A stretch of 5,191 nt of DNA. Origin: Candidatus Mcinerneyibacteriota bacterium. GTDB lineage: Bacteria; AUK180; JAQVHJ01. The stretch covers positions 1 through 5,191 of the forward strand of contig DAOVMD010000254.1 of NCBI GenBank assembly GCA_030630935.1, written 5' to 3'. The position numbers and the translations under genes are program-made. The notes beneath the pieces were generated by a model. That model made no database searches and was not told the origin of the DNA. It saw nothing but the letters and a program-made list of their open reading frames with translations. Position 1 is the stretch's first letter, and each line of letters begins with the position of its first letter. Below are positions 457 to 5,049 of this stretch, in pieces.

Positions 457-3400
457 ATGAAGAAGTTTCTAATTCTTATATTTTTAGTATTATTTTCAGT
501 TTCATTAATATATACTGATGAAGAAGTAAAAGATGAAGAAGTTAATCCATCGAGTGAATCAGAAGTTGTTATTGATGATGATGAAGATGTTCTAAGGATT
601 CTAACACAGAAAGGGAATGTTCAACTTAAGAATCTTGATGATAGACAGATTATAATTTATGATTTTGCCCGGATTTCATATAATAAGATAATTTTTGAAG
701 CGGATAAACTTACGATTGAAAAGTTTAAGGATTCAGATCTTACTTTAATACATGGTGATAAGAATGTTTTTGTTCATGATCAGGAGACAGGATTTATATT
801 AGAAGCCGGGAAGATAGTTTATAATTCAAAAAGAGATTTCATATATACAACTGTTAATCCAATAATCACTGTTGAAGAGAAAGATATCAGGATCACGTCA
901 AAAGAAGCGTTCTTTTATCGAGAGCAGAAATTAGCAGATGCAATTAGTGATGTTGATTTCATCTACAATGATTATAAAGGTAAGGGCGACCGTTTACAAT
1001 ACTACAAAGCAGACGAGAAAGTTTTTTTAAAAGGTTCAGCAAAGATAAACCGTAAAGACGGTTCATATATGGAGGGGGACGAGATAAAAATTTATGGTCG
1101 TGATACACTTATAATTTCCGGTAATGGCAAAGTAAAATTAAAAGATTTTTCCGGTCTTGAGAGTAAGGTAGGCCGGAAACAGAAGCGCACCAAAGAATTA
1201 CCCCACGCGGTACCTGTTAAGGACAAGTCTACTCGTAAAGATATCGGTGTGGATTCAGATACAGAACCCGAGCTTGTGATTGAAGGTCGGGAAGATAAAG
1301 ACCAGGAAGATAAAAAGCAAAAAAAGAAGAGTAAAGAAGGCACCCAAAAAGACAAAGAGAAGGAGAAGGACAAGGATAAGGATAAGGATAAGGATAAAAA
1401 GAAGAAATTACCGAAGAAAAAGAAGAAAGGCAGTACTCCATTAATTGCTGAATTTGAATTTATGGAATTGCGTGATAAGGATAATAAGATATATTTTCGA
1501 TATGCCAAGATTACCCAGAATAAAGACTGGTTATCAGGAGATGAGATTTTCATTGAGTACCTACCCCGGGAAAAGGGTAAAGAGACCAGTATTAAAAAGA
1601 TCAGAGCAGTTGGAGATGCAGAATCATATACTGCGAAGGATGATTCATTAGTAAGCGCTCACACAATAGAACTTGACGGAGATAATAATATTTCACTTTC
1701 CGGTTCACCCAGGATTACTATCCCCGATGAACAGGGTAAAGAGATGATAATTTCAGCAATTGAAATTAGTAAAGTCGGGGATATGGGTTATCTTGAAGGT
1801 TTAGTAAAGATAATTTCTGATGATTACGAGATTTATGCACAGAGTATTCAAATGAATGAAAAGACCAAATCAGGAACCGCGACAGGTTCACCATATTTTG
1901 TACGGGATAAAGATAGATTATTCGGTGATGAAATAAATTTCACACCCGATACACTTGAGATAATTGGTAATGGCTTTGGCTGGACATATAACAAGGAAGA
2001 AGAAAAGAAGAAGAAACCCGGTGACGGTAAGCCATCGAAAATCATCAGCGAAAAAGATAAGAAAGATAAAAAAGTTAAGAGTCATGATACTTCACCATCA
2101 GTAAGCGAAGATGAAAAAGGAACTGTAGTAGAAAAGGATAAGAGTCCAAAAGTCGAACCACCGACAACCGAAGATATAAAAGAAAGTGAAGAAGGAAAAG
2201 AGAAGAGTAAAAATGTTGAGCCTTCGAAAATCGAAGATTTAAAAGAAAGCAAAAAAGAAAAGAAGGGGAGTCACGTCATCGACCAGGCACCAGGTAAAGA
2301 ATCCGGAAAGGATGTTAAAAAAGAGTTGAAGAAGGATCTTGATCCTGATGATTTTGTGTTTTTTACTTTTGAATATTTATTCCATGATCGAGAGAAGAAT
2401 GTTACCAGGATGAAGAAATTTACAATGCGCGAGGGTAACATTTACATTCAAGCCGATAAGATTGAGATGTTTGGTAAGTTAGGAAAATTTAAATCAGGTT
2501 TTGGAGAAGGTAACATAGTTGTAATTGATTACAGTCAGAATTCCATGATAACAGGTGAAGCGTTCAGGTATGACAGTGATTCAGGAGATGTATTTTTAAT
2601 TGGCAGATCAAAGATAATCTTAGGGCCTGAGGGTCCAGCCACGAAGGAGCCATTTATTATTCAGAATGATGCATGGATTGAGAAGCACATAACGAGTGTG
2701 CCGGAAGATGATTTAATTGAGGTTGAAGGATATAATTTAACTTTTAACCGCATCTCCAAGGAAGCTTCCATTTCAAATGCAGTGACCTATATCAAGCCCT
2801 GGTATATAAAATCGGAGAAGGTTCTTCAGGTCAGAAAGGATATTTTCTGGGCAGAAGATTCGGATATTACATCTTGTGACGAAGAGATTCCGCATTATTA
2901 TTTCAGGATAAAGAGATTAAAGATATATACTAAGGATAAAATGGTGGCAAGAACAATGATCGGGTATTTTGGTCGCGCTCCATTATTATATTTCCCTTAT
3001 TTCATAAAGGATATTGACCCGGTTGATTCAAGATGGGTTGTGTATCTGGGACAAAATCAATATGAAGGTTATTATTGGAAGAATAAATATCTAATAGATA
3101 TGTTTAAAGACCGGGCCCACCTCGCCTTGAAATTTGATTATATGTCCAAGCTTGACTGGGGACGTGGTTTCACATATAGATATACAAGTGAAAAAGGTAA
3201 GTACCGGGGTTTTCTGAATCATTATTTTAATGAGGATAAGATAACATTCACTGATTTAGACGGAGAAGAAAAAAACTATTATAAACTGGGTTATAAATGG
3301 AGAGGTGAGCATTTACATTATTTACCTTTAAATAGCAGTCTAAGGATTTATATTGACAGATTCTCAGCACCTGAGTTAAATCAGAATCTTTATTCAGACC

Positions 3401-4680
3401 AGGTTGAAGAGGTTGCAAAACGCTCAGAAGATACCTATGTTTCACTTTCAAATTCATATAAAGCGATTTATTCCTTAGAAATATTGAATCAGGAAAAGAC
3501 AAATTTCTATAATGATATTGAGACAACTTATCGAAAAATCCCTGATGTGAGACTAAGTTTTTTATCACAAAAAATTCCGTTCGTGCCGGTTAATTATAGT
3601 CTTTCCACCAGGTATATTAATTATTGGAATGAACTTTATATTCAAGGCGGGAGCACCAGTTTCAGCCTTAGTACTGAATCATTTAAATTATTCCGGATTA
3701 TTTCAACTAATTTTCAAATATCAGAAAGTGTTTATTATGTTGATAAGACAATGGAAGAGAATACAAATTTATGGACCCGGAATTTTAATGGGACCACAAC
3801 AATTTCAACAAAGATGTGGCGGATTTTTAATCCTGAAGGCGTTCGAAAATTTAAACATACAGTCTCCCCCCGATTTTCGTATAATTATACCTATGTCCCA
3901 GAGAACTCGAGATATATTGAAAGAGAGCAATATTATTTTCCTGATTTTATGTCTGTACCCGTCTCAGGTAAATCAAATAGAAACATCGGTCTTGCTCTGA
4001 ATCAAAACCTTCAGATGAAGAAGGAAACAGTCATTACGGAAGAGGATAAAAATATCCTGAATAACTTTATGGGAAAACCCCAGTCAGAAGAGATGACAAA
4101 ACCGGAAATCAGAGATATTGTATCTCTTGAGATGTCAACCAATTACAACATTGATAATAGACTCTGGAGTGATCTCAACACACTAATAACTTCTTCTTTT
4201 GTCAAGAATTTCCGACTCGGGCTGCGAATCACAAATGATCTTGATCTATGGAAATTGAGATCATTAAGCTTTAATTTAAGTTATAATGATCAGGAGCATT
4301 GGGATATTAGTTCTAATCTGCTGTATTATCCTGAATCAGCTGAGTTTAAAACAACAATGTCAAATCGCGTGAGCTGGACAATGAATGATGATTTCAGTAT
4401 TTATTTCTATAGCAGGTATAATTTTTCCGGTCAATCTGATTTCTGGCATAGACTTTCAAGTAAGGAAATAGGAATTGAACATTCCCTACATTGCTGGCTT
4501 CTTTCAGTTTCATGGCGGCAAACTTATAATTTACTCGCGGATGACCAACCTGAGACAGAGAATATGATCTGGTTTAAAATTTTACTAAAAGCTGAGCGCT
4601 CAAATAAATTCTCAGTTGAAAATAACTTTGTTACAGACCAATTCAGTATAATGGGGAATAAGACTTCCTCACCATTTTAA
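457..4680 (+). CDS. lptD: LptD-like outer-membrane LPS assembly protein, enlarged
   Basis: This is an LPS-assembly protein of the LptD/OstA family. Family members form an outer-membrane barrel that, plugged by LptE, receives LPS from the periplasmic Lpt bridge and inserts it into the outer leaflet. Residues 1-20 form a signal peptide (MKK, then a hydrophobic core) with no lipobox. LptA/OstA-like beta segments lie at about 45-230, 328-512 and 633-800; the first two end in similar blocks (GS...GDEI...DTL.I.GNG, residues 193-224 and 477-506). Charged Lys/Glu/Asp linkers separate them at about 233-327 and 513-632. The LptD signature follows: TSC at 805-807, then YFGRAPLLYFPYF at 837-849. The remainder is aromatic-rich with alternating strands, as in a barrel, and ends in Phe. 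The only cysteines, 807 and 1346, match the places of E. coli C173 and C724/C725. At 1407 residues it is nearly twice E. coli LptD (784). No partner gene is in view. The family call is firm; linker function is unknown. Confidence 0.92.
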   Translation: MKKFLILIFLVLFSVSLIYTDEEVKDEEVNPSSESEVVIDDDEDVLRILTQKGNVQLKNLDDRQIIIYDFARISYNKIIFEADKLTIEKFKDSDLTLIHGDKNVFVHDQETGFILEAGKIVYNSKRDFIYTTVNPIITVEEKDIRITSKEAFFYREQKLADAISDVDFIYNDYKGKGDRLQYYKADEKVFLKGSAKINRKDGSYMEGDEIKIYGRDTLIISGNGKVKLKDFSGLESKVGRKQKRTKELPHAVPVKDKSTRKDIGVDSDTEPELVIEGREDKDQEDKKQKKKSKEGTQKDKEKEKDKDKDKDKDKKKKLPKKKKKGSTPLIAEFEFMELRDKDNKIYFRYAKITQNKDWLSGDEIFIEYLPREKGKETSIKKIRAVGDAESYTAKDDSLVSAHTIELDGDNNISLSGSPRITIPDEQGKEMIISAIEISKVGDMGYLEGLVKIISDDYEIYAQSIQMNEKTKSGTATGSPYFVRDKDRLFGDEINFTPDTLEIIGNGFGWTYNKEEEKKKKPGDGKPSKIISEKDKKDKKVKSHDTSPSVSEDEKGTVVEKDKSPKVEPPTTEDIKESEEGKEKSKNVEPSKIEDLKESKKEKKGSHVIDQAPGKESGKDVKKELKKDLDPDDFVFFTFEYLFHDREKNVTRMKKFTMREGNIYIQADKIEMFGKLGKFKSGFGEGNIVVIDYSQNSMITGEAFRYDSDSGDVFLIGRSKIILGPEGPATKEPFIIQNDAWIEKHITSVPEDDLIEVEGYNLTFNRISKEASISNAVTYIKPWYIKSEKVLQVRKDIFWAEDSDITSCDEEIPHYYFRIKRLKIYTKDKMVARTMIGYFGRAPLLYFPYFIKDIDPVDSRWVVYLGQNQYEGYYWKNKYLIDMFKDRAHLALKFDYMSKLDWGRGFTYRYTSEKGKYRGFLNHYFNEDKITFTDLDGEEKNYYKLGYKWRGEHLHYLPLNSSLRIYIDRFSAPELNQNLYSDQVEEVAKRSEDTYVSLSNSYKAIYSLEILNQEKTNFYNDIETTYRKIPDVRLSFLSQKIPFVPVNYSLSTRYINYWNELYIQGGSTSFSLSTESFKLFRIISTNFQISESVYYVDKTMEENTNLWTRNFNGTTTISTKMWRIFNPEGVRKFKHTVSPRFSYNYTYVPENSRYIEREQYYFPDFMSVPVSGKSNRNIGLALNQNLQMKKETVITEEDKNILNNFMGKPQSEEMTKPEIRDIVSLEMSTNYNIDNRLWSDLNTLITSSFVKNFRLGLRITNDLDLWKLRSLSFNLSYNDQEHWDISSNLLYYPESAEFKTTMSNRVSWTMNDDFSIYFYSRYNFSGQSDFWHRLSSKEIGIEHSLHCWLLSVSWRQTYNLLADDQPETENMIWFKILLKAERSNKFSVENNFVTDQFSIMGNKTSSPF
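1369..1398 (+). repeat. GATAAG hexanucleotide tract in lptD
   Basis: Five in-frame GAY-AAR units encode Asp-Lys five times (residues 305-314) inside the first charged linker; three of the five are identical GATAAG. As a six-base unit it can expand or shrink by slippage without shifting the frame. The purine-only coding strand continues on both sides, which is why the opposite strand shows long Ser/Leu/Phe open frames that are not genes. Confidence 0.75.
2152..2277 (+). repeat. 63-bp in-frame tandem repeat in lptD linker 2
   Basis: Residues 566-586 and 587-607 form two diverged 21-residue units. Shared positions include V-E-P, E-D, K-E-S and the following K (V566/V587, E572-D573/E593-D594, K575-E576-S577/K596-E597-S598). 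The period is 63 bp, in frame. The similarity fades towards the end of the second unit. It suggests that the second charged linker grew by local duplication. Confidence 0.65.
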
Positions 4681-4692
4681 TTTTGCAACCGA

Positions 4693-4786
4693 ACAGGGAA
4701 CAGAAAAGAATTTAAACACCTGTATGAAAGAAAAAGAAAAACAAACAAAAGAAAAGATTTAACATGGACTTTAAAGAGACTTATAA
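4693..4786 (+). repeat. 94-bp direct duplication, copy 1
   Basis: This segment matches 4863-4956 at a constant offset of 170. The first nine bases (ACAGGGAAC) and the last 28 bases (4759-4786) are identical, while the purine-rich middle has diverged strongly. Two AAAAG units (4747-4756) follow an AAAC word, as in the other copy. Identity at both ends with equal total length is what shows the two are related. Confidence 0.7.
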
Positions 4787-4865
4787 GTAGCTTAATGATA
4801 TTGTTTATAATTGTTTGGAGCATTTATTTCTTGAGGGTTCTAATGAATGAAAAATAATATTTACA

Positions 4866-4895
4866 GGGAACTTAAGAGAACTAACGAGAACTAAA
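4866..4895 (+). repeat. Three tandem 10-bp units (GRGAACTWAM)
   Basis: Units at 4866-4875, 4876-4885 and 4886-4895 follow the consensus GRGAACTWAM with one to three differences between them. The 10-bp spacing places each GAAC on the same face of the helix. Confidence 0.6.
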
Positions 4896-4900
4896 AAAAC

Positions 4901-4920
4901 AAAAGAAAAGAAAAGAAAAG
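4901..4920 (+). repeat. (AAAAG)4 microsatellite
   Basis: Four perfect AAAAG units are followed by eight A residues. The equivalent site in copy 1 of the duplication has only two units (4747-4756), so the number has changed since the duplication, presumably by slippage. Confidence 0.8.
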
Positions 4921-4934
4921 AAAAAAAATTAACA

Positions 4935-4967
4935 TGGACTTTAAAGAGACTTATAATGGACTATAGC
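4935..4967 (+). repeat. 11-bp period units (KRGACTTWWAA-like)
   Basis: Units at 4935-4945, 4946-4956 and 4957-4967 share GACT at the same place; the third is more diverged. The same run appears in copy 1 of the duplication (4765-4775, 4776-4786, and a weaker 4787-4797). The units resemble the 10-bp GRGAACTWAM units and may derive from one word. Confidence 0.5.
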
Positions 4968-4999: not shown

Positions 5000-5049
5000 G
5001 GGTCTTAGAGCCCCTTTGTTTATGGGGGCATCGAGCCCCTTTGCTTATG
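5000..5049 (+). repeat. Two 25-bp hairpin repeat units
   Basis: Unit 1 (5000-5024) and unit 2 (5025-5049) each run G-run, short loop, GAGCCCCTTTGYTTATG; the last 17 bases differ at one position. Unit 2 contains a perfect hairpin, GGGGC at 5025-5029 and GCCCC at 5035-5039 with loop ATCGA. Unit 2 ends in ATGCGTAG (5047-5054), as does the hairpin repeat at 2-42, which ties both sides of the gene to one repeat family. Confidence 0.7.

Follow-up and report, generated by a model that had tools for sequence, protein, structure and literature searches.

In the accepted model of lipopolysaccharide (LPS) transport, LptB2FGC drives LPS along a row of stacked jellyrolls that leads to LptD. LptD of Escherichia coli and Shigella (PDB 4Q35, 8H1R) has one N-terminal jellyroll, a cysteine signature and a large C-terminal barrel, with a cysteine pair between the N-domain and the C-terminus of the barrel. 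LptA and LptH (PDB 2R1A, 4UU4), which share the jellyroll fold, are separate proteins. How many copies of LptA make up the bridge remains a matter of debate (PMC7347655); growth of E. coli can be supported by monomeric LptA (PMC5575297). Here, a 5,191-nucleotide stretch of DNA from Candidatus Mcinerneyibacteriota bacterium (contig DAOVMD010000254.1 of assembly GCA_030630935.1; referred to as the window) was analyzed. The gene at 457–4680 on the forward strand encodes a 1407-residue LptD that resembles the described proteins in its N-terminal jellyroll, signature, barrel and cysteine pair, but has three segments and two charged linkers where those have one jellyroll. With a probability of about 0.8, this protein is an LptA–LptD fusion that forms a covalent bridge and makes a separate LptA unneeded. 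In contrast to LptA and LptH, the LptA part of such a chain is covalently fused to LptD and cannot oligomerize freely.

The open reading frame, with an ATG start, is the sole large one in the window, which is a complete contig (C256) of a 3.16-Mb genome in 471 contigs. All features of the gene lie on the forward strand. By inspection of the sequence, residues 1–20 (MKKFLILIFLVLFSVSLIYT; 457–516) form a signal peptide. Segment 1 (residues 45–230; 589–1146) and segment 2 (residues 328–512; 1438–1992) are LptA-like, and both exceed the cut-off of the Pfam family LptD_N (PF03968; 4.4e-6 and 4.6e-5, respectively). Segment 3 (residues 629–800; 2341–2856) is an ordinary LptD N-terminal jellyroll. Over the whole chain, PF03968 matches in three stretches (38.7 bits; cut-off, 20.4), and it is the sole Pfam family recognized in the protein. 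Scanned segment by segment, the LptA equivalog TIGR03002 matches all three (3.9e-7, 3.7e-4 and 4.7e-3), each below the equivalog cut-off; the whole chain scores 46.3 bits, short of the 71.7 needed. Because of this score and its place within a larger chain, the LptA-like part is regarded as working like LptA but is not classified as LptA itself. A sequence-only reading of this DNA had proposed three beta-rich LptA/OstA-like segments ahead of the LptD signature, and these matches confirm it, with segment and signature boundaries that were correct to within a few residues.

The segments are parted by linker 1 (residues 231–327; 1147–1437), with 97 residues of which 60% are lysine, glutamate, aspartate or arginine (K/E/D/R), and linker 2 (residues 513–628; 1993–2340), with 116 residues and 54% K/E/D/R. 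By composition, both linkers are probably disordered, and a low-confidence model of the window protein predicts no strands in linker 1. These K/E/D-rich linkers total about 213 residues and have no counterpart among relatives from the same class. The sequence-only reading had counted about 600 extra periplasmic residues; the extra segments are real, but the two linkers escaped it, and about 370 of the residues are jellyroll. Ahead of the cysteine signature, the N-terminal part (N-part) has 762 residues, of which about 548 of beta part are left once the linkers are removed. At the DNA level, part of the linker sequence comes from runs such as (AAGGAT)n.

Assignment as an LptD rests on relatives found by BLAST, the LptD signature and the barrel alignment. 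A first genome search using only the window protein returned no relatives; BLAST over 116 genomes located LptDs in 55. The signature (residues 805–855; 2869–3021; TSC...PHYYF...PLLYFPYFIKDID, with C807) aligns with LptDs from many other genomes. In an alignment of eight diverse LptDs, the PH pair and the PLLYFPY-type signature are kept, and C807 and a C-terminal LHC motif (L1344, H1345 and C1346, the last at 4492–4494) are invariant. C807 and C1346 are the only cysteines in the chain, in contrast to the four used in E. coli LptD (PMC8407342). By analogy with known LptD disulfides, the two would fit a single disulfide linking the N-domain to the barrel. The outer-membrane beta-barrel (residues ~856–1407; 3022–4677) is placed by BLAST matches to class relatives at residues 757–1157 and 1247–1406. 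A barrel of LptD topology is predicted by way of a class relative, whose modeled barrel matches LptD and with which the window protein aligns.

The composition of the long N-part was resolved with two profiles. One, built from eleven stand-alone LptAs, aligned over 318 columns with columns 20–378 of the long N-parts of seven lineages outside the class (E 1.3e-49); the other, from single-segment LptD_N domains, aligned with columns 385–508 of the same N-parts (E 3.1e-27). This co-linear match, LptA profile and then LptD_N profile, indicates that the long N-part consists of a complete LptA and, after it, an LptD N-domain. In the window N-part with its linkers spliced out, a local LptA profile scored 85 bits, whereas the highest of 200 shuffles reached 5.3; the match is fragmentary but significant and covers parts of segments 1 and 2 (residues 50–297, 349–410 and 440–613). 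The LptD_N profile matches residues 649–798 (independent E value, 8.8e-13). These positions make segments 1 and 2 the first and second lobes of the LptA part and place linker 1 between the lobes and linker 2, downstream of which the LptD_N match begins, at the fusion junction.

The usual place of lptA is empty in the source genome. On another contig (C148), an intact operon has the gene order kdsD-kdsC-lpxL-lptC-lptB-rpoN-hpf-hprK, and lptC abuts lptB with no gene between. We take the order kdsD-kdsC-lptC-lptB-rpoN to resemble that of E. coli, with an lpxL-type acyltransferase added here and lptA missing. The same adjacency was found in all seven genomes of the class (the source, its sister G001 and G002–G006; among them the metagenome genomes JAGLGN01, JAGLWT01, JAUXGM01 and CALMGJ01). 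LptC of the source genome scores above the TIGR04409 equivalog cut-off and LptB above the cut-off of TIGR04406. LpxC and one LptF/G protein are also present, and class relatives have two LptF/G copies. Since LptC is retained, the replacement concerns LptA and not the bridge as a whole. Searches of the source genome with PF03968 and TIGR03002, whose sole matches lie in LptD, revealed no stand-alone LptA-like protein, and a class-specific N-part profile over G002–G005 likewise matched in LptD alone. In these four relatives, the ones in which LptD was located, about 510 residues precede the cysteine signature, compared with 105–190 in one-segment LptDs. The proposal that part of the bridge is built into this chain, replacing or shortening the need for LptA, is therefore supported by the source and six class relatives; a full conventional LptA set and relatives lacking the extra segments would have argued the other way, and the opposite of both was found.

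Two side features of this locus concern its make-up. The genes rpoN, hpf and hprK belong to the same run as the LPS genes (L079:383–7066, on the same contig). LptC there and in the class genomes looks like a lipoprotein, with an SSGCGD lipobox in the source genome, as reported for Borrelia LptC, whereas E. coli LptC is a bitopic membrane protein.

Across the genomes, LptD N-parts form two groups, of about 105–190 residues with one segment and about 440–550 with three. For long N-parts with an evidently miscalled start, the length was corrected (in G105, the start lies near residue 273). Seven further lineages have three-segment LptDs (G105, G075, G031, G009, G015, G060 and G064); their genomes are 96–100% complete, and that of G064 is one contig. 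All seven have lptC immediately ahead of lptB, and searches with PF03968 and TIGR03002 found no credible LptA-like frame outside LptD; the two TIGR03002 matches outside LptD in G031 are at chance level. In each of the 18 scorable one-segment genomes, by contrast, lptC and lptB are separated by an lptA-like gene, or such a gene immediately precedes lptB. Counted by lineage, fused LptD without lptA against one-segment LptD with lptA gives 8:0 versus 0:18 (Fisher p 6e-7, relatedness not corrected for). Four genomes of ambiguous state were excluded from this count, G088 and G025 because lptB does not adjoin lptC, and G018 and G022, left unclassified, because their LptDs are long through low-complexity extensions. 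In an LptB tree the fused lineages are scattered, with eight changes needed for the fused group, of which well-supported branches force only two. Fused LptA–LptD is apparently a variant of the known Lpt system that is common to several lineages.

Two genomes that seemed to combine a long LptD with a retained lptA were rejected as such. In G067 the frame opens with a TatC domain and has one jellyroll segment; its LptA-like 473-residue frame was assigned by position and look and is not recognized by Pfam. In G063 the upstream part is arginine-rich noise, the likely start is near residue 607 and there is again one segment. The two LptDs with low-complexity extensions (L049 in G018, L188 in G022) carry about 200–300 such residues ahead of one jellyroll, and no lptA was seen beside lptB in either genome.

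The stand-alone two-lobe LptAs of other phyla also offer a close comparison (for example, G013, 372 residues; G111, 387; G109, 352). Over their full length, such LptAs align with segments 1 and 2 of the long N-parts, and the set of modules is the same as in the window, namely LptC, two LptA lobes and one LptD_N. The difference is that these genomes have a one-segment LptD and an lptC-lptA-lptB operon in which LptA is encoded separately, whereas in the window the two are fused. The LptD of Borrelia, BB0838 (1146 residues; PMC10353723), is long as well, and its Lpt system includes a lipoprotein LptC. The extra length lies, however, in the barrel and in a periplasmic loop; a single beta-taco (residues 76–293) makes up the N-domain, and LptA (BB0465) remains separate (PMC10353723). 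Literature searches for an LptA–LptD fusion or for extra LptA domains in LptD found no description, although an earlier mention is possible, for example in reviews of Lpt distribution.

Structure prediction was informative for a class relative. An AlphaFold model of its full-length LptD (L102), made with five sequences, had a mean predicted local distance difference test score (pLDDT) of 65.6. Residues 21–365 (pLDDT mostly 67–90) are modeled as a continuous beta-jellyroll, and the barrel is mostly at pLDDT 75–89. With VIA-align, the N-part matched crystal structures of LptC (3MY2; Z 13.1, 2.3 Å, 110 residues), LptH (4UU4; Z 13.0, 2.0 Å, 113 residues) and LptA (2R1A; Z 12.8, 2.5 Å, 119 residues). 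Parts of the model gave Z 12.5–13.1 at 2.0–2.9 Å overall, so that the relative shares the LptA/LptH fold at a Z of about 13. The match registers overlap (19–140 and 111–224), as expected of one continuous jellyroll. The best Foldseek matches of the model were LptD chains (E 3.7e-15).

In the proposed mechanism, the chain would run from the signal peptide through the two LptA lobes (segments 1 and 2) and the LptD N-domain (segment 3) to the LptD barrel. The LptB2FG machine and the LptC jellyroll would pass LPS straight to segment 1, on which LptC would dock, and the lipid would travel along the groove of segments 1, 2 and 3, stacked edge to edge, into the barrel. The bridge would thereby be a single covalent chain whose module count is fixed at LptC plus three, and the charged linkers probably loop out from it or give slack. 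A more tentative proposal, and a doubtful one, is that the fused bridge is an alternative form of Lpt with a fixed jellyroll count that arose or was kept more than once, in which the linkers of the window protein make an extensible covalent bridge that adapts to periplasm width without added copies of LptA.

Several results weigh against reading the protein as a fused bridge. AlphaFold, run on window residues 20–880 with five sequences, returned no usable model (pLDDT 35; predicted template modeling score, 0.27), and the third segment of the relative (370–606) is modeled at low confidence. The Pfam barrel model PF04453 has no match anywhere in the source genome, and no other barrel model matched the window protein either. 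In the class N-parts the co-linear profile match is weak (LptA profile, E 9e-6), with the order the same. Linkers as long as these (97 and 116 residues) could interrupt the groove. The source genome is 80% complete, and a distant lptA elsewhere is possible. Profiles for this fold are weak and miss the N-parts of G002–G005; absence by search is therefore softer than absence from the operon.

The last two points, together with the fast evolution of the fold and known members that its profiles miss, also speak for a rival explanation, in which a separate, diverged LptA encoded elsewhere is still used and the long LptD merely lengthens the bridge in a wide periplasm. Consistent with such lengthening, fused N-parts (442–548 residues, median 512) are on average longer than LptA and LptD_N summed in separate systems (264–531 residues, median 398). 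This explanation is nevertheless unlikely: the usual lptA slot is empty in all class genomes and in the seven other lineages, the long N-part holds a full-length LptA match rather than an arbitrary extra repeat, and the near-complete genomes, including the single-contig one, are without a credible second LptA-like frame. It is also quite improbable that the three jellyroll modules are strung on flexible charged linkers, with one of them in the bridge and the others put to a different use, such as binding of peptidoglycan, of another lipid or of a partner. The two long linkers part the segments of the window protein, and its model, too poor to be used, does not show stacking. However, the N-parts of relatives lack such linkers yet are similar in beta length, and the modeled relative has one continuous beta-jellyroll, which suggests that the linkers of the window protein are insertions into an existing continuous bridge.

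The cargo, rather than the architecture, could differ, as has been proposed for the Lpt systems of LPS-free spirochetes, and LptD-containing systems without LPS are indeed found in Borrelia (PMC10353723) and Treponema (PMC8407342). Transport of another amphiphile is very improbable here, since LpxC is encoded in the source genome and kdsD and kdsC homologues lie within the lptC–lptB operon, making a 3-deoxy-D-manno-octulosonate (Kdo)–lipid A pathway likely.

If the protein is a fused bridge, LptD can take in LptA, which is usually regarded as both essential and separate, and the lack of lptA in a genome survey does not imply that the Lpt pathway is lacking. A one-chain covalent bridge has a fixed number of modules, so that its length and stoichiometry would be directly measurable, and it would provide a natural test case for the copy number of LptA.

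Two further LptD frames have unusual domains attached. In G067, the frame that opens with TatC is a single one of 1194 residues (L158:1477–5061), with TatC (1.4e-63) followed by LptD (LptD_2, 3.8e-42), and represents either a TatC–LptD fusion or a lost stop codon. In G045, which keeps lptA, a 1279-residue LptD frame (L036:6161–10000) looks as though it had incorporated a SurA-like chaperone: PPIC-type prolyl-isomerase domains (Rotamase, 3.5e-19 and 3.6e-8) follow its LptD signature region and precede the barrel.

Repeats flank lptD in the window. Downstream, an A-rich direct repeat unit of 60 nucleotides is present in two copies (82%) at 4727–4956, and a 25-nucleotide tandem pair ending in CCCCTTTG(T/C)TTATG lies at 5000–5049. 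Upstream, a similar acaatggg(g/a)tttcaccccc motif occurs twice, at 1–50 and 310–345.

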